This document shows, piece by piece, positions 16,601 to 64,000 of a DNA stretch of 64,000 nt (the first letter of the stretch is position 1; each line of letters opens with the position of its first letter). The translations under genes and the position numbers were made by a program. The notes beneath the pieces are model-generated. The model had not been told where the DNA came from, made no database searches, and saw nothing but the letters and a program-made list of their open reading frames with translations. This DNA comes from Arctopsyche grandis (lineage: Eukaryota > Arthropoda > Insecta > Trichoptera > Hydropsychidae), in the NCBI RefSeq assembly GCF_051622035.1, contig NC_135356.1, positions 62,001 through 126,000 of the forward strand. Reading direction: 5' to 3'.

Positions 16601-16837
16601 CGTGCTTACCTCACAATACCTAACCCAACCTAACCTAACCATCACCGAAGTCAGAGAATTCGACATTGCCAAAATATCCACAAAAAGTTCATACCCCACC
16701 AAACCTCACCCATCTGAACCTAACCAACACCGAAATCAAAGAATTCGACAATGCCAAAATATCCACAAAACGTTCTTACCCCACCAAACCTAACCCAACT
16801 GAACCTAACCATCACCGAAATCAAAGAATTGGACATT
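7677..16837 (+). repeat. Satellite A array, unit 1 (170 bp dimeric monomer)
   Basis: About 54 monomers of 170 bp. Each is two ~85 bp halves that share TTGCCAAAATATCCAC. One half continues with AAAACGTGCTTACCTCACAA and CCTAACCTAACC. The other has GAATTC (an EcoRI site) before the shared word and CCAAACCTCACCCATCTGAA after it. Higher-order repeats are visible: a 510 bp repeat (10286 and 10796), a 1447 bp repeat (11306 and 12753) and a 681 bp repeat (13860, 14541 and 15222). The 1447 bp unit equals 8.5 monomers, so it shifts register by one half. No protein coding is credible here. Confidence 0.97.
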
Positions 16838-39282: not shown

Positions 39283-39286
39283 TTAA

Positions 39287-39833
39287 CCCTTGAATGCTGA
39301 CCAACGCCGATCGGCGTTATGCCAACAAGCCCATCAGCCTGAAATATGACTATCGGCGTTGTTTTTTTGAGTATGTTAAAAATAAACAAGAATACTACCC
39401 GCTAAGCCTTTCCAGGTTGCATTGAAAAAATAAATGCATTGAACATGGGTCGTGTAATCTGTGTCAATGTTTATAAAGACTTGGTTGACACTGGAATTTC
39501 TGAATTTATAACCATAACAGAATTTCTCGATGGAAATCCCTAACTGCTGAGTATTTTAGATTGTGGCTTGGCATTTAAATTGTGAGCATTACATTTTAAC
39601 AACAATGAAGAAGATGGAACTAGTTTTGGAAAAATACATTCATTAATAGACTTCTTTTGTTTATTTTATATTGTTGCAAGATGTATTAGAGTCTAAACAC
39701 ACCTTTACAAAACTCGAAATCGTCGGCGAGAGTTATCTAGGGTTTTTATACGTGCTTTCTATTGGATTTCTAAATAATTCTAATTTTCAGCGTGGTGGGC
39801 TTTAAAAAAAAAAGACGTCAGCACTCAAAAGGT
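39287..39833. mobile_element. piggyBac-type MITE, unit 2
   Basis: Copy of the unit 1 element, with TTAA at 39283-39286 and 39834-39837. Confidence 0.75.
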
Positions 39834-40867
39834 TTAAGTATATAAATTTTATACAAAATTGAATACAACAATCACCACAGTTTGAGAAATATTGATCTGA
39901 TAATTTATACGGTCAAAGACAACTGTAAAGATGGTGTTGTAAATGAGTTAATATAATTGCAGTTTTTGAATGCTTAGTAAGAAAAAATGGAAACAATGAG
40001 AGTTTTAAAGTGGCGTATACGATGGCATACATAGTTCTGGGAATCCCTTGGATTTATTGGAAGAAATACAAAAATTAAATTTATGAATAGAGATAGACAA
40101 GACCAAATGATCGACTAACGAAAAATCGGTAAAACATTTTAAAAGTAATTAAAAAGTAACCAATTTTTATAAAATAACATCTTATAATTATTTGATTCCC
40201 TACTCAAATGCAGCATTAGTACGAATTTTTAGTTTTGACGACGGCTTTGCAGAAAGAATGTAATCGTCCGTTGCTGAATACCTTGGAGTTGATAGAAAAA
40301 TAAAATTCTAATATATCATGCAGTTTCGCGAATTTTTAAAGACTTGAAATGAACATGCAGAAAATATTTTGAAAAATGAAACTGGAATTGAAAAATATTC
40401 AAAAGATTTGTGATATTTTTTATGGTTTGTGCTGTTTTATAATAAAAAAAAAATGTTATTGAAAGTTAACATTAAATATTATAGTATATTGAAAAAAATA
40501 TATTTTAATAAAATTCAGGTATGCTTTTTTTGAAAATCTGGCAACCTTTATGTAAATGTTTGTATGTAAAAAAATTACATATCTTAGAAATGTATATAGT
40601 TTTAGCGTTCTAAATAAATTATAACATGCTGGAGTTATAAACGCTCGTCGTCTGTAGAATTTCATAGGTTTTTAATATGAAATTCAGTTACATATTTACG
40701 CCCACCCATTCAATGTAGTATTTCTAGGTATAAAATTTAGTTGAAAATAAAATAGGTCAATTTCAAATCGATTCCAAGTGTATAAAAAGATAATGCAATT
40801 TGTTATTGTATTATGGAAAATATTCCATATGAGATTCAAACAAAATCAAAATAATAATTTCTTTAAA

Positions 40868-43800
40868 TTAATTAATTTCAATAACACCATCATCCAAATC
40901 TATTTTAATATTAGGAAGATTCAAAACTTTCGTTGTCGTTGTAGTTTTAGTGATCTCCGTAGTAGTTTCAACTGAACTATCTTGAACTGTGACACATTTT
41001 TTCAAAACTTTCATACTACTACTACTTTCAGTCTCATTTTTTCTTTTGGCCGATACATCGGTATTTTGTACACAGTTTGCAAACGATTCCTCACTATCCG
41101 TTAGGTCGATAACATTTTTTCCTTTTCTTTCTTCAACAACTTTTGGAGATTCATTATTTTTGTCTGAATTAGTCGTCGACTCGTTCATGCCATTTTTGCT
41201 GGAGGCGCGCTGTTTTGAATTCTTAGATTCTTGAACGGTGATGCACGGAATTAAATTTTTACAACTTGAAAGCCCCCTGATTACGCATGGCTTCATTGCC
41301 TCATAGTGTTCCTCTTTAAGTGTTATATCATTATTAACCGGCGATATTTCGAAAGGATCAACGCTGATAATCTCAAAACACTCCTTGATTTCTGTATCAA
41401 ATATTTTCTCAATGTATACCCGTTTTCGTGATGCACATTTATTTTTACTTTTCAGTAGCAAAATGTATGGTACTCGGTTTTCCGCATTTGTTTGGTTGTC
41501 AAGAACAAAAACCTCTTCCTGAAAATATAAATATTACAATAAATTAATATGTAGTACATTGTAGATAGTCAGTTCAAGTTCAAGGTTAATTAATACACAA
41601 AAAAAATTACTTTAGGTGTTATGGGTACCGCATCGTCTTCATTCACAGGTTTTATTTCATTATCACATTTGACTATCATTTGATTTTTTAGCTCACAAAT
41701 ATCATAATTCAAACGCACGAATTTCATGTTAAGATTTTCAATATGAAGTAAAATATTTTTTCTAGACATACTCAATACTTGTCGTTGTATTTTGATATTC
41801 TCTATCTCGTATTTAAGCTTTTCACACTTCAACCGAAGAATAGAAGTATAACTATTTCTGAAAACAAAAAATATATATATAAAAATAAAATAAAATTGTA
41901 ATGTATTATTAACAAAATCATCAAACGATATCGGTTTAAGGATTTTGGAATATAAATAGCCCTGCCAGGCGTTTCAGTATTCCGGGCTTGTCCCGGCGTC
42001 CCGAAAAGAACTTTGGGACACCCAAAAATCCCGGTTTTAGATCAATTGCTTGCTGATCATGACAACTCTCATTGTTTAGAAATACCGAGTCCCCTCAGTT
42101 ATGAAGTGAAATCATAAATCATTAATCGAAACGTATAGGATGTTACTAGTATGCTGCTACTAGATCAGTGGTTCTTAACCTTATTGGAGGTACTGAACCC
42201 CACCAGTTTCATATGCGTATTCACCGAACCCCTCTTAATTGGAATAATAAAATATGATTTTTTTCAAATTCAAAACATAGGTATATATTTTACTGGTGCA
42301 CAAAATGAACCGTGCATCAACATCACTGTGTTCAAAGAACAAAACCATTAAAACATGATTTTCACACAAAAACATAATAATGAATATTTACTGCAAATCA
42401 GTATGGCTTCTGCTGTTGCCTTTCAGAGACTAGTTCAGAAATGCGCGGCTTCACATTGGCAAGTGCCACTCTCATGTTATTTTCGCAACAAAGTCTGTTC
42501 CTTTTATTCGTTTTTATGTCCAGCATCCTCGAAAAGGATTGCTCGCAAAGATATGTAGTAACAAACGGTATGAAAATCTCCAGAGCTTTCTTAGCAATAA
42601 CAGGGTACGTTGCCATTTGTTGACACCAAAAATTTTGAGAACGTTGTTGTTCTGAAGAGTTGCTGTTGAACCTGGCTATGTTGAATTTCCGCCGCATACA
42701 TACAAACATGCATGCATACATACAAACATACATACGTACATACATACATACATACATGCATGCATACATACAAACACACACATACATAATACACACATAC
42801 ACACACACACAAATACACACATACACAAACAAATACATACATACATACATACATGCATGCATACATGCATGCATACATACAAACATACATACGTACATAC
42901 ATACATGCATACACACACACACACATACATAATACACACATACACACATGCATACGTACACACATACACACACACAAATACACACATACACACATGCAAA
43001 CATACACACACACATAGATCATGTGCCACCAAGACGAAGGGTGGACGGAAGCCCTACCGACAGTGTTACTGGGGATCCGATCGGCATGGTATCCGATAAG
43101 ACCTCAATGCCACGTCAGCAGAACTGGTATATGGTCAACCGCTACGGCTACCGGGAGAGTTTCTGGCTCCACAACGAAACGGAGGACCCAACACAGCGGA
43201 ACTAGCAGAGAGATTGCGGTCCCAAATGGGGCGAGGTTGAGAAACGCCAGTCCACCGCGGCGCCATGGAACAAGATCAACCTTCAGATCAACCAACAAAG
43301 ACCTGCACACCAGTGATCAGGTGTTCCTGAGACACGATGCTGCCAAGGGTCCGTTACAGCCAGTGTTGAAGAAGGGACCGAAGTTCTTCACACTGAGAAT
43401 TAAGGATTCCAATGTCACCGTATCGGTAGACCGCATAAAGCCGGCATACATGGAAAGCAGCGGAGAGCCCCCCAAGAAAATGCAGAACCACAGCAAGAAA
43501 CTGGCCGACAAGCAACCACACGGACTGGCAGGAGAGTCCGGTGGCCAGCCCATCTGGACAGCTACATCCCGTAGTTGTCGCGACGGCTACGCAATGTCGA
43601 GACCCACAATATGTATTTACATATGACATTTTGTAAAATATCGCATCGCAATAAATAATTATAATGAGAAGACGCGCGCGCGTCCGCAGTGAAATTGAAT
43701 GAATGAAAATTGAAAGGATTAAAGCGCGAGACGGAGACGGAGACGGAGACGGAGACGAGAAAGGAACATGCATTTCGCATTGGGTATGACAGCGCGAATG

Positions 43801-44064
43801 TATGAAACCGCAATCGTCCCAGCAATCGTCCCATCCCAGTGGCGAGGGGTGTTTTGGCGCGCGGAAGAGTTTTCGCAAAGTGACAGTTCGCAAACAGACA
43901 GAGTCTGCGACGCGTGACGTAAGTGAACTGAAGTGAACTCTAACGAAGCTGGTTAGTGTTAGTGTGGTATTGAATTAATATGAGAACACTCACCGGGAAG
44001 CAGAAGCAGAAGCAGAAGCAAAGGCAGAGGCAGAAGCAGAAGCAGAAGCGGAAGCGCCCGACAT
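40868..44064 (-). CDS. Gene A, unit 3 copy
   Basis: Exons are 44064-43994, 41857-41611 and 41518-40868. The coding sequence matches the other copies. Directly upstream of its ATG the satellite B block is 820 bp longer than in units 1 and 2, so its 5' neighbourhood differs from theirs although the first ~500 bp upstream are the same. Confidence 0.65.
42166..42695 (-). mobile_element. hAT 3' end, unit 3
   Basis: This is a duplicated copy in intron 1 of the unit 3 gene A. The terminal repeat starts at 42166. Confidence 0.85.
42696..43017. repeat. TACA/CACA compound microsatellite, unit 3
   Basis: Same length and interruption pattern as in units 1 and 2. Confidence 0.95.
43018..43626 (+). mobile_element. 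Ty3/Gypsy fossil, unit 3
   Basis: Duplicated copy with the same edges. Confidence 0.75.
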
Positions 44065-44164
44065 CGTGCGAGGCAGCGACTAGACTGACAGCGCAACAAC
44101 ACGCTGTTCGTTGAATTCGAATTTCGAATTTCGAATTTCGAATTACGAATTTCGAGTTTTGAAT

Positions 44165-45571
44165 CATGAATTTCGTTTCATGAACCAACGATAAAAGAGA
44201 ATCACCTTTGTCTCCGTTCCGTCTAAACATTTTCGAGTGCAATTACTTCTGCCTCATCGGCAGGTTTTTAATCTGAAAACTTAAATTGAACGCAAAGTAT
44301 GCTCCTGGTGATGAATTTCGTTAACCAACGATAACAGAGAATCACTTTTGTCTCCGTCTAAACATTTTGGAGTGCAATTACTTCTGTGGAAGAAGGATTT
44401 CGATCTGAATACTCAAAAAAGGAATGTTTTGTCCAGAATCGTGGCATAATTGAATGCATATTATTGCTCTTGCGATGAATTTCGTTTACCAACGATAAAA
44501 GAGAATCACTTTTGTCTCCGTCTTAACATTTTGGAGTGCAATTACTTATGCCGATGAAGGTTTTTAATCTGAAAACTTAAATAAGGAAAGTTTTCGCCCA
44601 AGTCGTGGCAAAATTGAACGCAAATTATGCTGCTGGTGATGAATTTCGTTTACCAACGATAAAAGAGAATAACTTTTGTCTCCGTCTTAACATTTTGGAG
44701 TGCAATAACTTATGCCGATGAAGGTTTTTAATCTGAAAACTTAAATAAGGAAAGTTTTGGCCCAAGTGATGGCATAATTGAACGCAAAGTATGCTCCTGG
44801 TGATGAATTTCGTTTACCAACGATAAAAGAGAATCACTTTTGTCTCCGTTTAAACATTTTGGAGTGCATATACTTCTGCCAAAGAAGGTTTTTAATCTGA
44901 AAACTTAAATAAGGAAAGTTTTGGCCCAAGTGATGGCATAATTGAACGCAAAGTATGCTCCTGGTGATGAATTTCGTTTACCAACGATAAAAGAGAATCA
45001 CTTTTGTCTCCGTTTAAACATTTTGGAGTGCAATTACTTATGCCGATGAAGGTTTTTAATCTGAAAACTTAAATAAGGAAAGTTTTGGCCCAAGTCGTGG
45101 CAAAATTGAACGCAAAGTATGCTCCTGGTGATGAATTTCGTTTACCAACGATAACAGAGTTTCACTTTTGTCTCCGTCTAAACATTTTGGGGTGCAATTA
45201 CTTCTGCCAAAGAAGGTTTCTAATATGAAAACTTAAATAAGGAAAGTTTTGGCCCAAGTCGTGGCAAAATTGAACGCAAATTATGCTTCTGGTGATGAAT
45301 TTCGTTTACCAACGATAAAAGAGAATCACTTTTGTCTCCGTCTTAACATTTTGGAGTGCAATTACTTATGCCGATGAAGGTTTTTAATCTGAAAACTTAA
45401 ATAAGGAAAGTTTTGTCCAGAATCGTGGCATAATTGAATGCATATTATTGCTCTTGCGATGAATTTCGTTTACCAACGATAAAAGAGAATCACTTTTGTC
45501 TCCGTCTAAACATTTTGGAGTGCAATTACTTCTGCCGATGAAGGTTTTTACCTTGCGATGAATTTCGTTTA
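44165..45571 (+). repeat. Satellite B, left block, unit 3 (expanded)
   Basis: About 8.6 monomers, 820 bp more than units 1 and 2, equal to five monomers of 164 bp. Successive starts of the GATGAATTTCG word at about 44473, 44638, 44802, 44966, 45130, 45293 and 45458 are 163-165 bp apart. The added monomers lie between about 44595 and 45415. Confidence 0.9.
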
Positions 45572-46149
45572 ATGTCCAATAAAACTCATGGATGTACAAA
45601 AATACCTAGTTTATAAGTTTTTACGTCTTATTTTGTTGAGAGAAAATGATTAGGTGTTTGATGTTTGAAGTTGTGCAAAAAACTGGTTAACTGAATTGTT
45701 TTTGAAATGAAAAGGTAGCTCGGGTTCACCGGATACTTACTTAACTTAAAAAAATGATGACCATTATTTTCATTGATTGATTGAGTTTCCACTCGTGATC
45801 ACATTAATAACAAAACGTTTATTAAAATAAGATGAAATAAATAAAAACACTCTTTTCATTTGAGAAAAAAATATATTTGTGACATTATATTTACAAATAT
45901 AGAACAGGATGAACTGTTAATAGTTTTCATGAAATAAAGAATGTGTACAAATAATTCCACATATATGTACTTACATATGTACATACATATATAATATATA
46001 ATAAATAAAAATGGAAATGCAAAACAAAAATCCTGTTTTAAGCCAACAGTGTTACCATTAAAAGGAAAACATTATATGTACATAATATTAAACAAGTTAT
46101 GCATTTAAACAAGTTACTACTCATTTGAATTCAAGTTTCATTTTCATTA

Positions 46150-49092
46150 TTAAACATTAAAACCAGTCAGTAAATGCATCGGTGCAATTAGCATATTAAA
46201 ATCGAATCGTTTCGTTGAAATGGATCCAATAATCGTCCACGAGTCTCTATCGGGGCTGTATTCTAGCACCGACAAGTGATTACCTCCTGAAATAAATATG
46301 TATTAAATATTAATCACTTGCATACAAAAAACACACACACACAATAATGGTTGTTACAAAATCAAAATCAACTCACCGACGCAAACAATTTTATCGTCGT
46401 GGACGATAGCCTTATGCCCAAACCGTGCTTCAGGGAGACTAGCAACATATGTCCAGGTTTGAGCCTCCGGGTCATACCGTTCTACCGAGTCGTGTGTACT
46501 ATTGCTATTGCTATTGCTGATAATATCGCAGGTGCCGCCAATTGCGTAGATATAACCTCCCAATGCAACAGCCTACAAAGTGAAACAGACTGAATATAAC
46601 GATATATAATATATGTATGTATGTACAATATTCAAAATTCAATTTTTCTAAAATGATGACAATACAATACATACAATGTAAAATGGCGATTATGTAGACA
46701 TAATCGATTTCAGAAAAAAATCCTGACAATACTTACAGCAAACCGGGCTCTCTTTTCGGCCATCGGCGGAGCGGCCGTCCATCTATTCCTGGCCACATTG
46801 AAAGTTTCCATGCTATTAAGGAATACCTCTTTGTCGTTTTTTCCACCTATTGCATATATGACACCGTCTAGTGCAACGGTGTCATGGAGATGTCGGCACT
46901 CCGACATATGGGATAGATAGGCCCAGTTTCTTGTATTGAAATCGTACCTTTGAAAAATCGTAAAAACTAGTTGTAATCCATTGTACAATATTAAAAAATC
47001 ATCATAAATATTCACCAACCAACCAACCTATGTACACTCGTTTGTAAGTCTATGTCTTCAGTGGCAGCATTGGAACAGGGATTTTTTCCTCCTGAGATGA
47101 AAACATGGTCACCGACAACAGCGGTTGCAAAATCTTTTCTTCCATGTACCATTTGTGGAAGCGCCGTCACATCCTTTGTGGCAACATCCAAACTGTACAT
47201 CTATTCAATATAAATATTATACATACGTATTATTATAACTGTATTGTTAATAAATTTGCATACAATAAGTGAACGACAATAAGGTAACAAAAGCAACGAG
47301 TTGCTGAATATTAATGAACTTACCTTTTGAAAAACCCAATGCCGGTATTGCAATCCCCCAAAGTAAACTTTTCAAAATATTGTTATAACAAATAGAATCT
47401 ACATAAATGTTCGATTTATTGTCATTTCTTTCGTGACGGCACAAATTTGAAAGTTTAGTAATAAATTGAATAAACACCTCCTTCGATCGACGGCCAATCA
47501 TTATTAAATATTGGTCTCGAAGAATGACCGTCTCGAAGGGATTATAAAATTTATTCATGTCGTAAAACGACAAACATTTCTGGAAATCTCCTCTTATTGT
47601 TTGGATTTCATTGGCAAGCTAAAAAAAAAACATTGAAAAATATACATAATTACATATACATATATCTATGTACATACATATGCATTTAAAGCATTTACAT
47701 ACAAACTAAACTTACTTTTGCCGAACGTCTTCCTACAATCAATATACCTCGTGTGCTCTTTCTAGGTTTTACATTTTGCAATGATAGACGTGGTCTCTTT
47801 TTTGGACTCATATTCCATTCAAGTAAATCCCACAATTGTTGACAGCATACACGATTGTAACAAAGAGGTTTCACTTCGTTTAAAATGAACTGAAACGAAA
47901 CATTTATAACGTTCAGCAATTAATCGCATACCTTTTTAAATTTATTGTGCCGAGCACACATTAAAAACAAAATATTATATCAAGTAATGATTAGTACATT
48001 GTACATACATACATACATACATACATACATACATGTGTACATATGAAAGCACATTAAGAAAGTACAGTAAGAATTACATGTAATATATGTATGTACAATA
48101 TACAAAACAAATTAAAAATATTATTACCTCTTTAGATAACAGACGAAATCTAACAAATTTAAATAAAGCATTCAAATGCTGCTTCCGATTGTCCCAGTCC
48201 TTTTGAACCCACAGCTTCAAGCCTATAAACACTTGCTCTTCTGTGGTGACATTTAAATCATTCGACTGCAGCAATTCCTCCAGTTGGTCAGCTTTTATAT
48301 CGAGAAACGCTCTCCCTTGAATTATCTACAATGCAGACAGACAGACAGATTTCATGAATATTAAAAAATATAAATACACATACGTATGTATGACCTAAAA
48401 TTATAATATACATACGTCAACATAATTTTTAGTTGTGTAAGCTCTCGTTTTTTCTAGCAATAAGAAATAACTATAATGCTTCGCAAAATTTCCGATTAAC
48501 AAGAAGTTTTCAGTATTTAATGCGCTTTCTAGGAACGACACGCAATAATCCTCAAGTTTATAGCAGTGAATGTTTGTTCGCGAAAATTCAACTAACTGGA
48601 TCGCCCCAAGAGGATCCAAATCTGCAAATATTGTAAAATTTGTCATTAGTACTAATTAGTACATATGTATTAATTCGTACGAACGAAGTTTAAATTCTCA
48701 CCGAGTTTGCCTCTGTAGAAGTATTCAATAGCTTTGCTCAAAGTGTCCAGACGAAAATCGCCCCGATCGTCCAAGACAATTTCCTCCGGTGATGCTTCTA
48801 AGCGCTCCGCCAAATAGTCGCTGTGGCACATAACAATAAACTTGTGTACATTGAATCTGCAAACAGATTAAACATAAAACCTCGAGTTAACATATGTACA
48901 TAATACATTAAATATTTGAAGCAAGACTAACCTTGCAGTGCCGACAACTAGCACAGTATCGCATTGCTCCTGTTCGACATACTTCCGATACATGTATTTC
49001 GAGAAAAGATGCGCATGCTGCACATCTATTTCGAAATCCGTTGAGTCACCAAAATTGGCACTAATTTCGGTCATATTGCTCCCGATGCTCAT
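46150..49092 (-). CDS. BTB-BACK-Kelch protein, unit 3 copy; same frame break
   Basis: Exon positions equal those of unit 1 plus 41461. One private base lies in intron 1 (A48876). The exon 6 A-run is at 47369-47372 with the same length. This copy diverges head-to-head from the inverted copy at 54319, with 5.2 kb of satellite A between the two start codons. Confidence 0.82.
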
Positions 49093-49137
49093 GTCTTTTC
49101 TAAAAATCAAATTATACAATAACAATAATATGAAAAT

Positions 49138-52100
49138 CATACACCACCAAACCTCACCCATCTGAACATAACCAACACCGAAATCAAAGAATTGGACATT
49201 GCCAAAATATCCACAAAACAAGCTTACCTCACCATACCTAACCCAACATAACCTTACCATCACCGAAGTCAAAGAATTCGATATTGCCAAAATATCCACA
49301 AAAAGTTCTGATCCTACCAAACCTCACCCATCTGAACCTAACCATCACCGAAATCAATCTTGGACATTGCCAAAATATCCACAAAACGTGCTTACCTCAC
49401 AATATTTAACACAACCTTACATAACCATCACCGAAGTCAAAGAATTCGACATTTCCAAAATATCCACAAAAAGTTCTTATCCTACCAAATCTCACCCATC
49501 TGAACCTAACCATCACCGAAATCAAAGAATTGGACATTGCTTAAATATCCACAAAACGTGCTTACCTCACAATACCTAACTTAACCTAACCTTACCATCA
49601 CCGAAGTCAGAGAATTCGACATTGCCAAAATATCCACAAAAAGTTCATATCCTACCAAACCTCACCCATCTGAACCTAACCGTCACCGAAATCAAAGAAT
49701 TGGACATTGCCAAAATATCCACAAAACAAGCTTACCTCACCATACCTAACCTAACATAACCTTACCATCACCGAAGTCAAAGAATTCGATATTGCCAAAA
49801 TATCCACAAAAAGTTCTGATCCTACCAAACCTCACCCATCTGAACCTAACCATCACCGAAATCAAAGGTTTGGACATTGCCAAAATATCCACAAAACGTG
49901 CTTACCTCACAATACCTAGCACAACCTTACATTACCATCACCGAAGTCAAAGAATTCGACATTTCCAAAATATCCACAAAAAGTTCTTATCCTACCAAAT
50001 CTCACCCATCTGAACCTAACCATCACCGAAATCAAAGAATTGGACATTGCCAAAATATCCACAAAACGTGCTTACCTCACAATACCTAACTTAACCTAAC
50101 CTAACCATCACCGAAGTCAGAGAATTCGACATTGCCAAAATCTCCACAAAAAGTTCATACCCCACCAAACCTCACCCATCTGAACCTAACTAACACCGAA
50201 ATCAAAGAATTGGACATTGCAAAAATATCCACAAAACGTATTTACCTCACAATACCTAACCCAACCTAACATAGCCATCACCGAAGTCAGAGAATTCGAC
50301 ATTGCCAAAATCTCCACAAAAAGTTCATATCCTACCAAACCTCACCCATCTGAACCTAACCGTCACTGAAATCAAAGAATTGGACATCGCCAAAATATCC
50401 ACAAAACGTGCTTACCTCACAATACCTAACCCAAGCTAACATAACCATCACCGAAGTCAGAGAATTCGACATTGCCAAAATATCCACAAAAAGTTCTTAT
50501 CCTACCAAACCTCACCCATCTGAACCTAACCATCACCGAAATCAAAAATTTAGACATTGCCAAAATATCCACAAAACGTGCTTACCTTACAATACCTAAC
50601 CCAACCTAACCTAACCATCACTGAAGTCAGAGAATTCGAAATTGCCAAAATATCCACAAAAAATTCTTATCCTACCAAACCTCACCCATCTGAACCTTAC
50701 CATCACAAAAATCAATGAATTCGACATTGCCAAAATATCCACAAAAAGTTCATACCCCACCAAACCTCACCCATCTGAACCTAACCAACACCGAAATATA
50801 AGAATTGGACACTGCTATAATATCCACAAAACGTGCTTACCTCACAATACCTCACCCATCTGAACCTAACCATCACCGAAATCAAAGAATTAGACATTGC
50901 CAAAATTTCCACAAAACGTGCTTACCTCACAATACCTAACCCAACCTAACCGAACCATCACCGAAGTCAGAGAATTCGACATTTTAAAAATATCCACAAA
51001 AAGTTCTTATCCTACCAAACCTCGACCATCTAAACCTTACCATCATAAAAATCAAAGAATTAGACATTGCCAAAATATCCACAAAACGTGCTTACCTCAC
51101 AATACCTAACCCAACCTACCCTAACCATCACCGAATTCAGAGAATTCGACATTGCCAAAATATCCACAAAAAGTTCTTATCCTACCAAACCTCACCCATC
51201 TGAACCTTACCATCACAAAAATCAAAGAATTAGACATTGCCAAAATTTCCACAAAACGTGCTTACCTCACAATACCTAACCCAACCTAACCGAACCATCA
51301 CCGAAGTCAGAGAATTCGACATTTCCAAAATATCCACAAAAAGTTCGTATCCTACCAAACCTCACCCATCTGAACCTAACCATCACCGAAATTAAAGAAT
51401 TGGACATTGCCAAAATATCCACAAAACGTGCTTCCCTCACAATACCTAACGCAACCTAACCTAACCATCACCGAAGTCAGAGAATTCGACATTGCCAAAA
51501 TATCCACAAAAAGTTCTTATCCTACCAAACCTTACCCATCTGAACCTAACCATCATCGAAATCAAAGAATTGGACATTGCCAAAATATCCACAAAACGTG
51601 CTTACCTAACTATACCTAATCCAACCTAACCTTACCATCACCGAAGTCAAAGAATTCGACATTGCCAAAATATCCATAAAAAATTCTGATCCTACCAAAC
51701 CTCACCCATCTGAACCTAACCATCATCGAAATCAAAGAATTGGACATTGCCAAAATATCCACAAAACGTGTTTACCTCACCATACCGAACCCAACCTAAC
51801 CTCACCATCACCAAAGTCAGAGAATTCGACATTGCCAAAATATCTTCAAAAAGATCATATCCTACCAAACCTCACCTATCTGAACCTAACCATCACCGAA
51901 ATCAAAGAATTGGACATTGCCAAAATATCCACAAAACGTGCTTACCTCACAATAACTAACCCAACCTAACATAACCATCACCGAAGTCAAAGATTTCGAC
52001 ATTTCCAAAATATCCACAAAAAGTTCTTATCCTACCAAATCTCACCCATCTGAACCTAACCATCACCGAAATCAATGAATTGGACATTGCCAAAATATCC

Positions 52101-54302
52101 ACAAAATGTGCTTACCTAACTATACCTAATCCAACCTAACCTTACCATCACCGAAGTCAAAGAATTCGACATTGCCAAAATATCCATAAAAAATTCTGAT
52201 CCTACCAAACCTCACCCATCTGAACCTAACCATCATCGAAATCAAAGAATTGGACATTGCCAAAATATCCACAAAACGTGTTTACCTCACCATACCGAAC
52301 CCAACCTAACCTCACCATCACCAAAGTCAGAGAATTCGACATTGCCAAAATATCTTCAAAAAGATCATATCCTACCAAACCTCACCTATCTGAACCTAAC
52401 CATCACCGAAATCAAAGAATTGGACATTGCCAAAATATCCACAAAACGTGCTTACCTCACAATAACTAACCCAACCTAACATAACCATCACCGAAGTCAA
52501 AGATTTCGACATTTCCAAAATATCCACAAAAAGTTCTTATCCTACCAAATCTCACCCATCTGAACCTAACCATCACCGAAATCAATGAATTGGACATTGC
52601 CAAAATATCCACAAAATGTGCTTACCTCACAAAGCCTAACTCAACCTAACCTAACCATCCTCTAAGTCAGAGAATTCGACATTGCCAAAATATCCACAAA
52701 AAGTTCTTATCCTACCAAACCTCACCCATCTGAACCTAGCCATCACCGAAATCAAAGAATTGGACATTGCCAAAATATTTACAAAACTTGCTTACTTCAC
52801 AATACCTAACCCAACCTAACCTCACCATCACCGAAGTCAAAGAATTCGACATCGCCAAAATATCCACAAAAAATTCTTATCCTACCAAACCTCACCCATC
52901 TGAACCTAACCATCACCGAAATCAAAGAATTAGACATTGCCAAAATATCCACAAAACGTGCTTACCTCACAATACCTAACCCAACCTAACCTAACCATCA
53001 CCGAAGTCTGGGAATTCGACATCGCCAAAATATCCACAAAAAATTCTTATCCTACCAAACCTCACCCATCTGAACCTAACCATCACCGAAATCAAAGAAT
53101 TGGACATTGCTAAAATATCCACAAAAATTTCATATCCTAAAAAAACCTCACCCATCTGAACCTTACCGTCACTGAAATCAAAGAATTGGACATTGCCAAA
53201 ATATTCATAAAACGTGCTTACCTCACCATACCTTACTTAACCTAACCTAACCATCACCGAAGTCAAAGAATTCGACATTGCCAAAATATCCACAAAAAGT
53301 TCTTATCCTACCAAACCTCACCCATCTGAACCTTACCATCACAAAAATCATAGAAATGGACATTGCCAAAATTTCCACAAAACGTGCTTACCTCACAATA
53401 CCTACCCCAACCTAACATAACCATCACCGAAGTCAGAGAATTCGACATTGCCAAAATATCCACAAAAAGTTCTTATCTTTCCAAACCTCACCCATCTGAA
53501 CCTAACCATCACCGAAATCAAAGAATTGGACATTGCCAAAATATCCACAAAAATTTCATATCCTAAAAAAACCTCACCCATCTGAACCTTACCATCACCG
53601 AAGTCAAAGAATTCGACATTGCCAAAATATCCACAAAAAGTTCTTATCCTACCAAACCTCACCCATCTGAACCTTACCATCACAAAAATCATAGAATTGG
53701 ACATTGCCAAAATATCCAAAAAACGTGCTTACCTCACCATACCGAACCCAACCTAACCTAACCATCACCAAAGTCAGAGAATTCGACATTGCCAAAATAT
53801 CCACAAAAAGTTCGTATCCTACCAAACCTCACCCATCTGAACCTAACCATCACCGAAATTAAAGAATTGGACATTGCCAAAATATCCACAAAACGTGCTT
53901 CCCTCACAATACCTAACGCAACCTAACCTAACCATCACCGAAGTCAGAGAATTCAACATTGCCAAAATATCCACAAAAAGTTCTTATCCTACCAAACCTT
54001 ACCCATCTGAACCTAACCATCATCGAAATCAAAGAATTGGACATTGCCAAAATATCCACAAAACGTGCTTACCTAACTATACCTAATCCAACCTAACCTT
54101 ACCATCACCGAAGTCAAAGAATTCGACATTGCCAAAATATCCACAAAAAGTTCATACCCCACCAAACCTCACCCATCTGAACCTAACCAACACCGAAATA
54201 TAAGAATTGGACACTGCTATAATATCCACAAAACGTGCTTACCTCACAATACCTCACCCATCTGAACCTAACCATCACCGAAATCAAAGAATTAGACATT
54301 TA
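49138..54302 (+). repeat. Satellite A array, unit 3 (palindrome spacer, truncated)
   Basis: About 30 monomers. It keeps the two 510 bp repeats (51747 and 52257) but has only one 681 bp-type monomer (53874). After about 54125 the array jumps to a block that resembles 50735-50905 (CACAATACCTCACCCATCTG), then ends in TTAGACATT at the inversion point. Confidence 0.96.
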
Positions 54303-54318
54303 GATTTTTAGAAAAGAC
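54290..54318. other. Inversion breakpoint
   Basis: Satellite A (AAAGAATTAGACATT) runs into TA and then GATTTTTAGAAAAGAC, the reverse complement of the Kelch leader at 49093-49108. One or two bases (TA) at 54301-54302 are not clearly from either side, and short ATT/TTT homology surrounds the join. Confidence 0.85.
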
Positions 54319-57261
54319 ATGAGCATCGGGAGCAATATGACCGAAATTAGTGCCAATTTTGGTGACTCAACGGATTTCGAAATAGATGTGCAGCATGCGC
54401 ATCTTTTCTCGAAATACATGTATCGGAAGTATGTCGAACAGGAGCAATGCGATACTGTGCTAGTTGTCGGCACTGCAAGGTTAGTCTTGCTTCAAATATT
54501 TAATGTATTATGTACATATGTTAACTCGAGGTTTTATGTTTAATCTGTTTGCAGATTCAATGTACACAAGTTTATTGTTATGTGCCACAGCGACTATTTG
54601 GCGGAGCGCTTAGAAGCATCACCGGAGGAAATTGTCTTGGACGATCGGGGCGATTTTCGTCTGGACACTTTGAGCAAAGCTATTGAATACTTCTACAGAG
54701 GCAAACTCGGTGAGAATTTAAACTTCGTTCGTACGAATTAATACATATGTACTAATTAGTACTAATGACAAATTTTACAATATTTGCAGATTTGGATCCT
54801 CTTGGGGCGATCCAGTTAGTTGAATTTTCGCGAACAAACATTCACTGCTATAAACTTGAGGATTATTGCGTGTCGTTCCTAGAAAGCGCATTAAATACTG
54901 AAAACTTCTTGTTAATCGGAAATTTTGCGAAGCATTATAGTTATTTCTTATTGCTAGAAAAAACGAGAGCTTACACAACTAAAAATTATGTTGACGTATG
55001 TATATTATAATTTTAGGTCATACATACGTATGTGTATTTATATTTTTTAATATTCATGAAATCTGTCTGTCTGTCTGCATTGTAGATAATTCAAGGGAGA
55101 GCGTTTCTCGATATAAAAGCTGACCAACTGGAGGAATTGCTGCAGTCGAATGATTTAAATGTCACCACAGAAGAGCAAGTGTTTATAGGCTTGAAGCTGT
55201 GGGTTCAAAAGGACTGGGACAATCGGAAGCAGCATTTGAATGCTTTATTTAAATTTGTTAGATTTCGTCTGTTATCTAAAGAGGTAATAATATTTTTAAT
55301 TTGTTTTGTATATTGTACATACATATATTACATGTAATTCTTACTGTACTTTCTTAATGTGCTTTCATATGTACACATGTATGTATGTATGTATGTATGT
55401 ATGTATGTACAATGTACTAATCATTACTTGATATAATATTTTGTTTTTAATGTGTGCTCGGCACAATAAATTTAAAAAGGTATGCGATTAATTGCTGAAC
55501 GTTATAAATGTTTCGTTTCAGTTCATTTTAAACGAAGTGAAACCTCTTTGTTACAATCGTGTATGCTGTCAACAATTGTGGGATTTACTTGAATGGAATA
55601 TGAGTCCAAAAAAGAGACCACGTCTATCATTGCAAAATGTAAAACCTAGAAAGAGCACACGAGGTATATTGATTGTAGGAAGACGTTCGGCAAAAGTAAG
55701 TTTAGTTTGTATGTAAATGCTTTAAATGCATATGTATGTACATAGATATATGTATATGTAATTATGTATATTTTTCAATGTTTTTTTTTTAGCTTGCCAA
55801 TGAAATCCAAACAATAAGAGGAGATTTCCAGAAATGTTTGTCGTTTTACGACATGAATAAATTTTATAATCCCTTCGAGACGGTCATTCTTCGAGACCAA
55901 TATTTAATAATGATTGGCCGTCGATCGAAGGAGGTGTTTATTCAATTTATTACTAAACTTTCAAATTTGTGCCGTCACGAAAGAAATGACAATAAATCGA
56001 ACATTTATGTAGATTCTATTTGTTATAACAATATTTTGAAAAGTTTACTTTGGGGGATTGCAATACCGGCATTGGGTTTTTCAAAAGGTAAGTTCATTAA
56101 TATTCAGCAACTCGTTGCTTTTGTTACCTTATTGTCGTTCACTTATTGTATGCAAATTTATTAACAATACAGTTATAATAATACGTATGTATAATATTTA
56201 TATTGAATAGATGTACAGTTTGGATGTTGCCACAAAGGATGTGACGGCGCTTCCACAAATGGTACATGGAAGAAAAGATTTTGCAACCGCTGTTGTCGGT
56301 GACCATGTTTTCATCTCAGGAGGAAAAAATCCCTGTTCCAATGCTGCCACTGAAGACATAGACTTACAAACGAGTGTACATAGGTTGGTTGGTTGGTGAA
56401 TATTTATGATGATTTTTTAATATTGTACAATGGATTACAACTAGTTTTTACGATTTTTCAAAGGTACGATTTCAATACAAGAAACTGGGCCTATCTATCC
56501 CATATGTCGGAGTGCCGACATCTCCATGACACCGTTGCACTAGACGGTGTCATATATGCAATAGGTGGAAAAAACGACAAAGAGGTATTCCTTAATAGCA
56601 TGGAAACTTTCAATGTGGCCAGGAATAGATGGACGGCCGCTCCGCCGATGGCCGAAAAGAGAGCCCGGTTTGCTGTAAGTATTGTCAGGATTTTTTTCTG
56701 AAATCGATTATGTCTACATAATCGCCATTTTACATTGTATGTATTGTATTGTCATCATTTTAGAAAAATTGAATTTTGAATATTGTACATACATACATAT
56801 ATTATATATCGTTATATTCAGTCTGTTTCACTTTGTAGGCTGTTGCATTGGGAGGTTATATCTACGCAATTGGCGGCACCTGCGATATTATCAGCAATAG
56901 CAATAGCAATAGTACACACGACTCGGTAGAACGGTATGACCCGGAGGCTCAAACCTGGACATATGTTGCTAGTCTCCCTGAAGCACGGTTTGGGCATAAG
57001 GCTATCGTCCACGACGATAAAATTGTTTGCGTCGGTGAGTTGATTTTGATTTTGTAACAACCATTATTGTGTGTGTGTGTTTTTTGTATGCAAGTGATTA
57101 ATATTTAATACATATTTATTTCAGGAGGTAATCACTTGTCGGTGCTAGAATACAGCCCCGATAGAGACTCGTGGACGATTATTGGATCCATTTCAACGAA
57201 ACGATTCGATTTTAATATGCTAATTGCACCGATGCATTTACTGACTGGTTTTAATGTTTAA
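54319..57261 (+). CDS. BTB-BACK-Kelch protein, inverted-arm copy; same frame break
   Basis: Plus-strand exons are 54319-54479, 54555-54709, 54790-54995, 55086-55283, 55522-55695, 55793-56087, 56211-56383, 56464-56674, 56839-57034 and 57125-57261. The exon 6 A-run is 56039-56042. A 70 nt intron at 55974-56043 (GTCACG...AAAAG) would also restore the frame, but it has a poor donor and would remove a stretch that looks like a normal Kelch blade strand, so a one-base insertion is preferred. Only 16 bases upstream of this ATG belong to the gene; everything further up is satellite A, so any native upstream exon or promoter is missing. AATAAA lies at 57588-57593. Confidence 0.82.
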
Positions 57262-57839
57262 TAATGAAAATGAAACTTGAATTCAAATGAGTAGTAACTT
57301 GTTTAAATGCATAACTTGTTTAATATTATGTACATATAATGTTTTCCTTTTAATGGTAACACTGTTGGCTTAAAACAGGATTTTTGTTTTGCATTTCCAT
57401 TTTTATTTATTATATATTATATATGTATGTACATATGTAAGTACATATATGTGGAATTATTTGTACACATTCTTTATTTCATGAAAACTATTAACAGTTC
57501 ATCCTGTTCTATATTTGTAAATATAATGTCACAAATATATTTTTTTCTCAAATGAAAAGAGTGTTTTTATTTATTTCATCTTATTTTAATAAACGTTTTG
57601 TTATTAATGTGATCACGAGTGGAAACTCAATCAATCAATGAAAATAATGGTCATCATTTTTTTAAGTTAAGTAAGTATCCGGTGAACCCGAGCTACCTTT
57701 TCATTTCAAAAACAATTCAGTTAACCAGTTTTTTGCACAACTTCAAACATCAAACACCTAATCATTTTCTCTCAACAAAATAAGACGTAAAAACTTATAA
57801 ACTAGGTATTTTTGTACATCCATGAGTTTTATTGGACAT

Positions 57840-59246
57840 TAAACGAAATTCATCGCAAGGTAAAAACCTTCATCGGCAGAAGTAATTGCACTCCAAAATG
57901 TTTAGACGGAGACAAAAGTGATTCTCTTTTATCGTTGGTAAACGAAATTCATCGCAAGAGCAATAATATGCATTCAATTATGCCACGATTCTGGACAAAA
58001 CTTTCCTTATTTAAGTTTTCAGATTAAAAACCTTCATCGGCATAAGTAATTGCACTCCAAAATGTTAAGACGGAGACAAAAGTGATTCTCTTTTATCGTT
58101 GGTAAACGAAATTCATCACCAGAAGCATAATTTGCGTTCAATTTTGCCACGACTTGGGCCAAAACTTTCCTTATTTAAGTTTTCATATTAGAAACCTTCT
58201 TTGGCAGAAGTAATTGCACCCCAAAATGTTTAGACGGAGACAAAAGTGAAACTCTGTTATCGTTGGTAAACGAAATTCATCACCAGGAGCATACTTTGCG
58301 TTCAATTTTGCCACGACTTGGGCCAAAACTTTCCTTATTTAAGTTTTCAGATTAAAAACCTTCATCGGCATAAGTAATTGCACTCCAAAATGTTTAAACG
58401 GAGACAAAAGTGATTCTCTTTTATCGTTGGTAAACGAAATTCATCACCAGGAGCATACTTTGCGTTCAATTATGCCATCACTTGGGCCAAAACTTTCCTT
58501 ATTTAAGTTTTCAGATTAAAAACCTTCTTTGGCAGAAGTATATGCACTCCAAAATGTTTAAACGGAGACAAAAGTGATTCTCTTTTATCGTTGGTAAACG
58601 AAATTCATCACCAGGAGCATACTTTGCGTTCAATTATGCCATCACTTGGGCCAAAACTTTCCTTATTTAAGTTTTCAGATTAAAAACCTTCATCGGCATA
58701 AGTTATTGCACTCCAAAATGTTAAGACGGAGACAAAAGTTATTCTCTTTTATCGTTGGTAAACGAAATTCATCACCAGCAGCATAATTTGCGTTCAATTT
58801 TGCCACGACTTGGGCGAAAACTTTCCTTATTTAAGTTTTCAGATTAAAAACCTTCATCGGCATAAGTAATTGCACTCCAAAATGTTAAGACGGAGACAAA
58901 AGTGATTCTCTTTTATCGTTGGTAAACGAAATTCATCGCAAGAGCAATAATATGCATTCAATTATGCCACGATTCTGGACAAAACATTCCTTTTTTGAGT
59001 ATTCAGATCGAAATCCTTCTTCCACAGAAGTAATTGCACTCCAAAATGTTTAGACGGAGACAAAAGTGATTCTCTGTTATCGTTGGTTAACGAAATTCAT
59101 CACCAGGAGCATACTTTGCGTTCAATTTAAGTTTTCAGATTAAAAACCTGCCGATGAGGCAGAAGTAATTGCACTCGAAAATGTTTAGACGGAACGGAGA
59201 CAAAGGTGATTCTCTTTTATCGTTGGTTCATGAAACGAAATTCATG
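57840..59246 (-). repeat. Satellite B block, inverted arm (expanded form)
   Basis: Reverse complement of 44165-45571 including the five extra monomers, which shows that the inverted arm was copied from unit 3. Confidence 0.9.
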
Positions 59247-59322
59247 ATTCAAAACTCGAAATTCGTAATTCGAAATTCGAAATTCGAAATTCGAATTCAA
59301 CGAACAGCGTGTTGTTGCGCTG

Positions 59323-59327
59323 TCAGT
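59323..59327 (+). promoter_or_regulatory. Possible initiator (TCAGT) for gene A
   Basis: TCAGT, the arthropod initiator core, lies about 20 bases upstream of the gene A ATG in a locally GC-richer stretch between a TTTCGAA microsatellite and the start codon. The same site occurs in the other copies (3443-3447, 24699-24703 and 44084-44088 on the minus strand). No TATA box is evident. This is a short motif and could be chance. Confidence 0.25.
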
Positions 59328-59346
59328 CTAGTCGCTGCCTCGCACG

Positions 59347-62300
59347 ATGTCGGGCGCTTCCGCTTCTGCTTCTGCTTCTGCCTCTGCCTTTGCTTCTGCT
59401 TCTGCTTCTGCTTCCCGGTGAGTGTTCTCATATTAATTCAATACCACACTAACACTAACCAGCTTCGTTAGAGTTCACTTCAGTTCACTTACGTCACGCG
59501 TCGCAGACTCTGTCTGTTTGCGAACTGTCACTTTGCGAAAACTCTTCCGCGCGCCAAAACACCCCTCGCCACTGGGATGGGACGATTGCTGGGACGATTG
59601 CGGTTTCATACATTCGCGCTGTCATACCCAATGCGAAATGCATGTTCCTTTCTCGTCTCCGTCTCCGTCTCCGTCTCCGTCTCGCGCTTTAATCCTTTCA
59701 ATTTTCATTCATTCAATTTCACTGCGGACGCGCGCGCGTCTTCTCATTATAATTATTTATTGCGATGCGATATTTTACAAAATGTCATATGTAAATACAT
59801 ATTGTGGGTCTCGACATTGCGTAGCCGTCGCGACAACTACGGGATGTAGCTGTCCAGATGGGCTGGCCACCGGACTCTCCTGCCAGTCCGTGTGGTTGCT
59901 TGTCGGCCAGTTTCTTGCTGTGGTTCTGCATTTTCTTGGGGGGCTCTCCGCTGCTTTCCATGTATGCCGGCTTTATGCGGTCTACCGATACGGTGACATT
60001 GGAATCCTTAATTCTCAGTGTGAAGAACTTCGGTCCCTTCTTCAACACTGGCTGTAACGGACCCTTGGCAGCATCGTGTCTCAGGAACACCTGATCACTG
60101 GTGTGCAGGTCTTTGTTGGTTGATCTGAAGGTTGATCTTGTTCCATGGCGCCGCGGTGGACTGGCGTTTCTCAACCTCGCCCCATTTGGGACCGCAATCT
60201 CTCTGCTAGTTCCGCTGTGTTGGGTCCTCCGTTTCGTTGTGGAGCCAGAAACTCTCCCGGTAGCCGTAGCGGTTGACCATATACCAGTTCTGCTGACGTG
60301 GCATTGAGGTCTTATCGGATACCATGCCGATCGGATCCCCAGTAACACTGTCGGTAGGGCTTCCGTCCACCCTTCGTCTTGGTGGCACATGATCTATGTG
60401 TGTGTGTATGTTTGCATGTGTGTATGTGTGTATTTGTGTGTGTGTATGTGTGTACGTATGCATGTGTGTATGTGTGTATTATGTATGTGTGTGTGTGTGT
60501 ATGCATGTATGTATGTACGTATGTATGTTTGTATGTATGCATGCATGTATGCATGCATGTATGTATGTATGTATGTATTTGTTTGTGTATGTGTGTATTT
60601 GTGTGTGTGTGTATGTGTGTATTATGTATGTGTGTGTTTGTATGTATGCATGCATGTATGTATGTATGTATGTACGTATGTATGTTTGTATGTATGCATG
60701 CATGTTTGTATGTATGCGGCGGAAATTCAACATAGCCAGGTTCAACAGCAACTCTTCAGAACAACAACGTTCTCAAAATTTTTGGTGTCAACAAATGGCA
60801 ACGTACCCTGTTATTGCTAAGAAAGCTCTGGAGATTTTCATACCGTTTGTTACTACATATCTTTGCGAGCAATCCTTTTCGAGGATGCTGGACATAAAAA
60901 CGAATAAAAGGAACAGACTTTGTTGCGAAAATAACATGAGAGTGGCACTTGCCAATGTGAAGCCGCGCATTTCTGAACTAGTCTCTGAAAGGCAACAGCA
61001 GAAGCCATACTGATTTGCAGTAAATATTCATTATTATGTTTTTGTGTGAAAATCATGTTTTAATGGTTTTGTTCTTTGAACACAGTGATGTTGATGCACG
61101 GTTCATTTTGTGCACCAGTAAAATATATACCTATGTTTTGAATTTGAAAAAAATCATATTTTATTATTCCAATTAAGAGGGGTTCGGTGAATACGCATAT
61201 GAAACTGGTGGGGTTCAGTACCTCCAATAAGGTTAAGAACCACTGATCTAGTAGCAGCATACTAGTAACATCCTATACGTTTCGATTAATGATTTATGAT
61301 TTCACTTCATAACTGAGGGGACTCGGTATTTCTAAACAATGAGAGTTGTCATGATCAGCAAGCAATTGATCTAAAACCGGGATTTTTGGGTGTCCCAAAG
61401 TTCTTTTCGGGACGCCGGGACAAGCCCGGAATACTGAAACGCCTGGCAGGGCTATTTATATTCCAAAATCCTTAAACCGATATCGTTTGATGATTTTGTT
61501 AATAATACATTACAATTTTATTTTATTTTTATATATATATTTTTTGTTTTCAGAAATAGTTATACTTCTATTCTTCGGTTGAAGTGTGAAAAGCTTAAAT
61601 ACGAGATAGAGAATATCAAAATACAACGACAAGTATTGAGTATGTCTAGAAAAAATATTTTACTTCATATTGAAAATCTTAACATGAAATTCGTGCGTTT
61701 GAATTATGATATTTGTGAGCTAAAAAATCAAATGATAGTCAAATGTGATAATGAAATAAAACCTGTGAATGAAGACGATGCGGTACCCATAACACCTAAA
61801 GTAATTTTTTTTGTGTATTAATTAACCTTGAACTTGAACTGACTATCTACAATGTACTACATATTAATTTATTGTAATATTTATATTTTCAGGAAGAGGT
61901 TTTTGTTCTTGACAACCAAACAAATGCGGAAAACCGAGTACCATACATTTTGCTACTGAAAAGTAAAAATAAATGTGCATCACGAAAACGGGTATACATT
62001 GAGAAAATATTTGATACAGAAATCAAGGAGTGTTTTGAGATTATCAGCGTTGATCCTTTCGAAATATCGCCGGTTAATAATGATATAACACTTAAAGAGG
62101 AACACTATGAGGCAATGAAGCCATGCGTAATCAGGGGGCTTTCAAGTTGTAAAAATTTAATTCCGTGCATCACCGTTCAAGAATCTAAGAATTCAAAACA
62201 GCGCGCCTCCAGCAAAAATGGCATGAACGAGTCGACGACTAATTCAGACAAAAATAATGAATCTCCAAAAGTTGTTGAAGAAAGAAAAGGAAAAAATGTT

Positions 62301-62543
62301 ATCGACCTAACGGATAGTGAGGAATCGTTTGCAAACTGTGTACAAAATACCGATGTATCGGCCAAAAGAAAAAATGAGACTGAAAGTAGTAGTAGTATGA
62401 AAGTTTTGAAAAAATGTGTCACAGTTCAAGATAGTTCAGTTGAAACTACTACGGAGATCACTAAAACTACAACGACAACGAAAGTTTTGAATCTTCCTAA
62501 TATTAAAATAGATTTGGATGATGGTGTTATTGAAATTAATTAA
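59347..62543 (+). CDS. Gene A, inverted-arm copy
   Basis: On the plus strand the exons are 59347-59417, 61554-61800 and 61893-62543 (stop TAA 62541-62543). This copy is the easiest for checking the model: exon 1 is 71 nt (23 codons plus CG), exon 2 is 247 nt starting with the A that completes CGA, and exon 3 is 651 nt. The total of 969 nt is exactly 323 codons. Because three independent pieces join in frame with good splice sites, the first exon is unlikely to be a chance ORF. Confidence 0.65.
59785..60393 (-). mobile_element. Ty3/Gypsy fossil, inverted arm
   Basis: Duplicated copy, now on the minus strand and still antisense to its host gene. Confidence 0.75.
60394..60715. repeat. TACA/CACA compound microsatellite, inverted arm
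   Basis: Reverse complement of the unit 3 block, reading TGTG/TATG on the plus strand. Confidence 0.95.
60716..61245 (+). mobile_element. hAT 3' end, inverted arm
   Basis: Here the transposase tail reads on the plus strand with its stop at 61011-61013. The terminal repeat ends in GGTTAAGAACCACTG at 61245. Confidence 0.85.
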
Positions 62544-63577
62544 TTTAAAGAAATTATTATTTTGATTTTGTTTGAATCTCATATGGAATATTTTCCATAA
62601 TACAATAACAAATTGCATTATCTTTTTATACACTTGGAATCGATTTGAAATTGACCTATTTTATTTTCAACTAAATTTTATACCTAGAAATACTACATTG
62701 AATGGGTGGGCGTAAATATGTAACTGAATTTCATATTAAAAACCTATGAAATTCTACAGACGACGAGCGTTTATAACTCCAGCATGTTATAATTTATTTA
62801 GAACGCTAAAACTATATACATTTCTAAGATATGTAATTTTTTTACATACAAACATTTACATAAAGGTTGCCAGATTTTCAAAAAAAGCATACCTGAATTT
62901 TATTAAAATATATTTTTTTCAATATACTATAATATTTAATGTTAACTTTCAATAACATTTTTTTTTTATTATAAAACAGCACAAACCATAAAAAATATCA
63001 CAAATCTTTTGAATATTTTTCAATTCCAGTTTCATTTTTCAAAATATTTTCTGCATGTTCATTTCAAGTCTTTAAAAATTCGCGAAACTGCATGATATAT
63101 TAGAATTTTATTTTTCTATCAACTCCAAGGTATTCAGCAACGGACGATTACATTCTTTCTGCAAAGCCGTCGTCAAAACTAAAAATTCGTACTAATGCTG
63201 CATTTGAGTAGGGAATCAAATAATTATAAGATGTTATTTTATAAAAATTGGTTACTTTTTAATTACTTTTAAAATGTTTTACCGATTTTTCGTTAGTCGA
63301 TCATTTGGTCTTGTCTATCTCTATTCATAAATTTAATTTTTGTATTTCTTCCAATAAATCCAAGGGATTCCCAGAACTATGTATGCCATCGTATACGCCA
63401 CTTTAAAACTCTCATTGTTTCCATTTTTTCTTACTAAGCATTCAAAAACTGCAATTATATTAACTCATTTACAACACCATCTTTACAGTTGTCTTTGACC
63501 GTATAAATTATCAGATCAATATTTCTCAAACTGTGGTGATTGTTGTATTCAATTTTGTATAAAATTTATATACTTAA

Positions 63578-64000
63578 ACCTTTTGAGTGCTGACGTCTTT
63601 TTTTTTTAAAGCCCACCACGCTGAAAATTAGAATTATTTAGAAATCCAATAGAAAGCACGTATAAAAACCCTAGATAACTCTCGCCGACGATTTCGAGTT
63701 TTGTAAAGGTGTGTTTAGACTCTAATACATCTTGCAACAATATAAAATAAACAAAAGAAGTCTATTAATGAATGTATTTTTCCAAAACTAGTTCCATCTT
63801 CTTCATTGTTGTTAAAATGTAATGCTCACAATTTAAATGCCAAGCCACAATCTAAAATACTCAGCAGTTAGGGATTTCCATCGAGAAATTCTGTTATGGT
63901 TATAAATTCAGAAATTCCAGTGTCAACCAAGTCTTTATAAACATTGACACAGATTACACGACCCATGTTCAATGCATTTATTTTTTCAATGCAACCTGGA
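63578..64000. mobile_element. piggyBac-type MITE, inverted arm (cut by window end)
   Basis: Inverted copy of the unit 2 element. TTAA at 63574-63577 precedes it and the window ends inside it. It shows that the right arm extends into unit 2 sequence. Confidence 0.75.

Follow-up and report, generated by a model that had tools for sequence, protein, structure and literature searches.

The stretch of DNA considered here comes from Arctopsyche grandis (Trichoptera, Hydropsychidae; NCBI RefSeq assembly GCF_051622035.1) and holds a large palindrome, in which a unit carrying the microRNA mir-252 and a BTB-BACK-Kelch gene is followed, across a satellite spacer, by its inverted copy. The window, i.e., the whole stretch of 64,000 nucleotides that was analysed, corresponds to positions 62,001 to 126,000 of contig NC_135356.1 (hereafter C2; 39,475,857 bp) in a genome of 475,669,232 bp and 189 contigs. 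Positions given without a prefix are those of the window, while a prefix names the contig.

A tandem array of composite units beside the telomere

The end of C2 consists of (TAACC)n (C2:1-3660), the complement of the insect-type telomere repeat TTAGG, which at C2:3660 merges directly into satellite A, an array with 12-14 copies of CCTAACC per kb. An origin from a true fly, which the microRNA and the base composition had at first suggested, was rejected in view of this TTAGG-type telomere (PMC9693754). From the telomere inwards, satellite A in the plus orientation, up to C2:20,180, is followed by five tandem units in the same orientation (U1 to U5), by the spacer, by an inverted sixth unit (R) and by satellite A in the minus orientation. 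The first unit starts at about C2:20,202, giving the array the telomere adjacency of a subtelomeric macrosatellite, and the centre of the palindrome is located approximately 114 kb from the telomeric contig end. Behind R, satellite A occupies C2:129,188-199,858 (71 kb) and C2:206,038-210,065, and no N occurs anywhere in the sequence read (C2:1-256,000). A 6.2 kb non-LTR (long terminal repeat) retrotransposon with endonuclease and reverse transcriptase lies inside this satellite A (C2:199859-206037), flanked on both sides by GGTAAGCAC, like a target-site duplication.

Each unit is laid out as satellite B, segment Z (with mir-252), segment X, satellite B again, segment Y (with the Kelch gene) and satellite A. 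The tandem units of the window, which begin at 1, 21257 and 40642 and are numbered 1, 2 and 3, are U3, U4 and U5, respectively. In pairwise comparison, U1 to U5 differ by 2-7 substitutions in about 12 kb (~12,060 bp), besides one 4-bp gap and an 820-bp expansion. Outside the satellites, a 3,642-bp block shows 0 differences among the three window units and the right arm of the palindrome, a 3,595-bp block shows 1-3 differences between units and a 3,303-bp block shows 0 differences between the two units in which it is seen in full. Five large, near-identical units in one orientation are characteristic of a macrosatellite, and the locus forms the inner edge of such an array, which is young and subtelomeric and belongs to an insect whose telomeres are of TTAGG type. 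In the sequence read, the whole unit was seen on C2 alone. Elsewhere, among the matches listed, it is a telomere-plus-satellite motif that is found near contig starts (C10:7680, C3:10936, C4:11397, C6:8789, C7:27-136 kb and C12:7793), always on the plus strand, the C10 motif being the closest to the C2 boundary, with 1 mismatch. Among the places listed, a short interstitial stretch of exact telomere repeat was also found at C1:24599936-24600014. The satellite patterns had 0 matches in the viral_contigs and genome_contigs collections, which says nothing on insects.

Judging from its matches elsewhere in the genome, the unit is a chimera of a segment shared with contig C11 and a Kelch amplicon shared with contigs C41 and C188. 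The two parts meet at 42694/42695, at the start of a (CATA)n microsatellite, and the unit is, as in macrosatellites and segmental duplications, pieced together from other chromosomal places. In U5, the C11-shared segment (37342-42694, plus strand) corresponds to C11:17686336-17691404 with 97-99% identity, in two pieces (98.7% over 1,161 columns and 97.2% over 3,935 columns) totalling 84 substitutions. Relative to C11, the C2 unit carries a 283-bp insertion (38499-38781), and the two matching pieces of C11 share 11 bp, an overlap of the sort expected from a target-site duplication. This segment contains two exon-like stretches on the minus strand and the mir-252 precursor (38063-38135, plus strand, and also 18678-18750; Rfam RF00838). 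At least six copies of mir-252 are present on C2 (starting at C2:22020, 39275, 59422, 80678 and 100063 on the plus strand and at 127276 on the minus strand) and at least one on C11 (C11:17687057), all seven scoring 69.7 bits. The exon-like open frames (40868-41973, minus strand) are coiled-coil-like, match no Pfam family at the cut-off and include a VIDLTDSEES stretch, which we take to be SUMO-interaction-like. They are followed by a remnant of a hAT transposase C-terminus (42398-42680, minus strand; Pfam PF05699, E 8.7e-06, 25.9 bits for a cut-off of 21.4). The search for tRNAs found none.

The Kelch-amplicon segment (42695-49142, plus strand) comprises the (CATA)n repeat, an integrase-like frame that has no Pfam match and is presumably akin to the end of a retrotransposon integrase, satellite B and the Kelch gene. 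It matches the C41 amplicon in overlapping pieces at 95-98%, its Kelch part showing gaps and 20 substitutions over 3,692 bp, and the Kelch block of the C188 amplicon is about 98% alike. The satellite B inside this segment (copy 1; 44284-45550, plus strand) contains the 820-bp expansion, while copy 2 (36245-37338, plus strand; 164-bp period) precedes the C11-shared segment. The BTB-BACK-Kelch gene (46160-49092, minus strand, lower end approximate) was recognised by its Pfam domains, namely BACK (E 2.9e-16), Kelch_1 (E 3.8e-12 and 3.8e-16) and a weak BTB below the cut-off. Joining its exons by eye gives 5 internal stops, and a frame break in the sixth exon-like stretch (47324-47618, minus strand) recurs unchanged in the copies read, 6 on C2 and 5 on C188. 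This may mean that the gene is broken, or that the exon joins overlooked a short intron or an acceptor. A 1-kb Kelch probe gave 44 matches, including 6 in the C2 array, 12 full and 2 partial matches on C188 in both orientations and 4 on C41, with weaker ones on C2 near 35.3 Mb, on C6 and on C9. At C2:35.27-35.41 Mb, deep in the interior of this chromosome, diverged pieces of the Kelch amplicon (86-91%) lie in both orientations.

The palindrome and its junction

The window part of the right arm (54303-64000, minus strand) is the reverse complement of 39411-49108 at 9,698 of 9,698 letters, far beyond chance. The end at 64000 is only the edge of the window, and R runs on to C2:129187. At full length, the left arm, which is U5 minus its satellite A (36224-49108, plus strand; C2:98224-111108), is 12,885 bp long, as is C2:116303-129187, with which it aligns without gaps and with 2 mismatches. 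Both mismatches are located in satellite B copy 2, at C2:98644 and C2:98811 (36644 and 36811). The arms surround a spacer of 5,194 bp (49109-54302, plus strand) that is not itself inversely duplicated, as in fold-back inverted duplications, and that consists of 36 bp of gene flank, satellite A (49145-54300, plus strand; 85/170-bp period, rich in CCTAACC) and 2 odd bases. Among the six C2 units, the 820-bp satellite B expansion is present in U5 and R alone, and the two bases that distinguish U5 from window units 1 and 2 (45738 and 48876) are also found in the right arm. The original prediction, made on the window alone, had described arms that are reverse complements, with no mismatch in the parts compared, a satellite spacer of about 5.2 kb and a right arm sharing the expansion and private bases of unit 3, all of which was confirmed, the spacer being almost wholly satellite A.

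At the novel junction (54301-54302), satellite A ending in GACATT is followed by TA and then by the inverted arm, which begins 16 bp upstream of the predicted Kelch start codon (C2:116,300-116,303). The junction shows no clear homology, with the two bases TA unexplained and at most a short imperfect match of TTT type, and a 27-mer spanning it has 1 match in the genome with up to 2 mismatches allowed. In U1 to U5, a 36-bp stretch sits between the Kelch gene and the satellite, whereas R lacks it. Since most of this stretch continues the gene flank found on C188, the inner edge of R is the derived side. With up to 3 mismatches allowed, the 36-mer occurs at 5 places in the genome, all of them in U1 to U5.

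The absence of an orphan 36-bp flank in the genome (≤3 mismatches) and in C2:1-256,000 (≤8 mismatches) bears on the possibility of a paracentric inversion, in which R and the 71 kb of satellite would have been an ordinary tandem unit, next in the series, that was turned round without being copied. Such an event would account for the flipped orientation that R shares with the satellite A behind it, and the relation of R to U4 and U5, described below, is that expected of a tandem neighbour. In addition, 25 of the 25 motif places listed within 200 kb of a contig start (seven contigs) are on the plus strand, as are U1 to U5. However, the motif holds 20 bases of telomere repeat, hence the way it points at contig starts is to some extent predetermined, and internal places lie on both strands among the matches listed. 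The missing orphan flank is the reciprocal junction that an inversion should leave; it speaks against a simple balanced inversion keeping both junctions, and the other end must then be lost or missing from the assembly. An inversion therefore appears doubtful.

The spacer is colinear with the satellite array of U3 up to 54118, with 4 mismatches in 5,010 bp, and its last 182 bp of satellite (54119-54300) are identical to 9256-9437. The register thus jumps at 54118, which is 184 bp short of the junction. Such jumps from one satellite array to another occur often at this locus, suggesting that exchange within the array is ordinary. For the same reason, the jump was given little weight when considered as proof of serial template switching.

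A mosaic inverted unit and its origin

The two differences between the arms, and the sequence beyond them, indicate that R is more than a mirror image of U5. At C2:98644 and C2:98811, R carries the letters of U4. Just past the arm, about 270 bp of satellite end are common to all arrays, and farther out the flank of R tracks the satellite A array of U3 (7685-16838, plus strand), its closest relative, rather than any of the others among the five compared (C2:129167-137069 and the reversed C2:78859-70958 show a single mismatch over about 7.9 kb). The array of U3 is the left neighbour of U4, just as the array of U4 (28940-36223, plus strand) lies left of U5. Compared with these units, R thus resembles U5 at the inner end and, at the outer end, U4 together with the left flank of U4. 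Because U4 and U5 are identical throughout C2:98812-106503 (7.7 kb), the switch from U5-like to U4-like sequence falls within this interval. To form this mosaic, neighbouring units must have exchanged sequence at least once, unless the donor array was already short of one unit. The proposal that unit 3, as opposed to units 1 or 2, was the source of the arm thus holds within the window but fails for the whole arm, given the U4 alleles at the two outer sites. A plain fold-back of unit 3 was likewise rejected for the whole arm, the far end of R combining U4 alleles with a U3 satellite flank, and is possible for the inner part.

It could be argued that the junction at 54303 is absent in the animal and was produced by a chimeric or fold-back read, or by a wrong path through identical repeats. 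The arms run for 9.7 kb of the window with no mismatch, the junction sequence is found once in the genome and the 7.7 kb over which U4 and U5 are identical would offer a false path a place to merge. Moreover, amplified DNA and certain long-read libraries are known to yield inverted repeats (PMC6218980, PMC12870357). On the other hand, there is no N nearby, and the contig continues through 71 kb of satellite and reaches 39.5 Mb overall. The far end of R follows U4 and the satellite of U3 and not U5, so that R is not the mirror copy of one molecule throughout and does not arise from a single mirrored molecule. The spacer measures 5.2 kb, whereas PMC12870357 defines fold-back artefacts as returning within 200 bp; the same paper pictures one fold-back with about 2 kb between its arms and reports virtually none in its PacBio HiFi sample. 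Long-read fold-back artefacts thus resemble the locus in being near-perfect inverted repeats and differ from it in its 5.2 kb spacer, its mosaic far end and its lack of a contig dead end. An assembly artefact is hence unlikely, and less likely than a real inverted duplication. The caution on this point in the original prediction was fair, although the simple fold-back of unit 3 or the returning assembly walk that it envisaged misfits the U4-type far end of R, the 71 kb of satellite and the contig beyond. A chimeric read at the junction that merges with a real inverted unit is possible.

The palindrome is probably a recent and real inverted duplication within the subtelomeric macrosatellite. 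The mosaic of R, with its U5 marks, U4 alleles and U3 satellite flank, points to an independent copy and not to one mirrored molecule. A second case of inverted pairing of the same amplicon also counts for this interpretation: C188:45001-71000 contains a separate Kelch-amplicon palindrome with an AT-rich minisatellite at its centre, in which 6,668 bp of the inverted pair, outside satellite B, align with 1 substitution and 4 gap columns. Another inverted Kelch pair on C188 surrounds a run of 500 N (C188:25001-25500), indicating that this contig is scaffolded. In 40 kb of the 131.8 kb of C188, no satellite A match of at least 300 bp and no Z match of at least 100 bp was present among the matches listed.

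Taking the assembly at the junction to be correct, we infer a repair route and an order of events as follows. A break inside satellite A would have been joined in repair, with no long homology, to the opposite strand a short way upstream of the Kelch gene, by fold-back or template switch, and the template may have been the sister or the homologous array. The copy would be recent and taken from the local array, in which recombination, then or later, would have left R as a mosaic of two neighbouring units. The structure resembles, by analogy, the inverted duplications formed by fold-back or template switch that are described in PMC3907307 and PMC10622511. In the first of these, spacers of human inverted duplications range from 766 to 70,466 bp (median 3,428), and inserted bases were found at 5 of 21 sequenced junctions. 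The human fold-back copy-number variants share with the locus the inverted copy, a single-copy spacer some kb in length, little or no homology at the junction and inserted bases (PMC3907307). They differ in that the C2 arms comprise 12.9 kb plus satellite, lie within a tandem array and have their new junction on the centromere side.

Several points weigh against a real inverted duplication formed in this way. When a broken end folds back, the spacer usually stays natively joined to the centromere-side arm. Here, the spacer and the 36-bp flank are native to the telomere-side U5 and not to the centromere-side arm, and the new junction faces the centromere; a textbook fold-back consequently needs an extra step, and the locus is not filed in the fold-back class. 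A copy from the sister or homologous array, or an inversion losing its other junction, would also serve. Copying 21 kb leaves the 71 kb of flipped satellite A behind R unexplained. The inverted pairs of C188 belong to an unplaced contig, with 500 N at the centre of one pair. Finally, the assembly was judged here from the assembled sequence alone, the uniqueness of the junction is equally compatible with an artefact and with a young event, and a chimeric junction read could merge with a real inverted unit through the identity of U4 and U5 over C2:98812-106503.

Y-chromosome palindromes with multi-copy genes are known, and the original prediction had placed the palindrome in the context of ampliconic sex-chromosome regions, where arms are kept alike by gene conversion. 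The mosaic of U4 and U5 alleles in R could be a conversion track, and the Kelch amplicon forms a second palindrome on an unplaced contig. Like mammalian Y palindromes, the locus has highly identical arms that contain genes. Unlike them, it is subtelomeric and apparently young, and its arms are no more alike than its tandem units (2 differences in 12,885 bp between arms, 2-7 substitutions in about 12,060 bp between units). As the tandem units are about equally young and alike, gene conversion is not needed to explain the likeness of the arms. This context is therefore not supported and a sex-chromosome origin is very improbable; the palindrome is of the kind expected in fast-changing telomere-adjacent DNA, and is not special evidence for a sex chromosome.

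Comparison with known systems and significance

The closest known layout is, by analogy, that of the human D4Z4 array with its inverted DUX4c unit at 4q35, which is likewise a subtelomeric macrosatellite carrying genes with a single inverted unit on the centromere side (PMC12376486). The human inverted unit is truncated and stands apart from the array, whereas R abuts the array and is complete but for the gene flank. The genes and the sequences of the two loci are unrelated as far as seen. The C2 locus was not recognised in the literature searched, which is no claim of its absence from print.

The density of CCTAACC in satellite A and its merging into the telomere make the healing of satellite A breaks by telomerase plausible. 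On a speculative and rather improbable view, satellite A would act as a breakage-and-healing spacer, whose broken ends are capped by telomerase or rejoined to the opposite strand, repeatedly capturing, tandemly multiplying and flipping genes. The captured genes may then be mir-252 from C11 and the Kelch gene from the C41/C188 amplicon. If so, read-through of the palindrome would give a long hairpin RNA comprising the microRNA host segment and the Kelch gene.

The numbers of differences suggest a likely order, in which the C11 and C41 pieces came first (84 substitutions in about 5.1 kb and 20 in 3,692 bp), followed by the tandem spread (2-7) and by the palindrome (2). If the junction is real, the locus is a case for how inverted units form beside telomeres; if it is not, it is a warning about assembled chromosome ends. 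The locus represents a young patchwork of tandem and inverted units, of a kind known at human chromosome ends, in an insect with TTAGG-type telomeres, and it holds six extra subtelomeric copies of the conserved microRNA mir-252.

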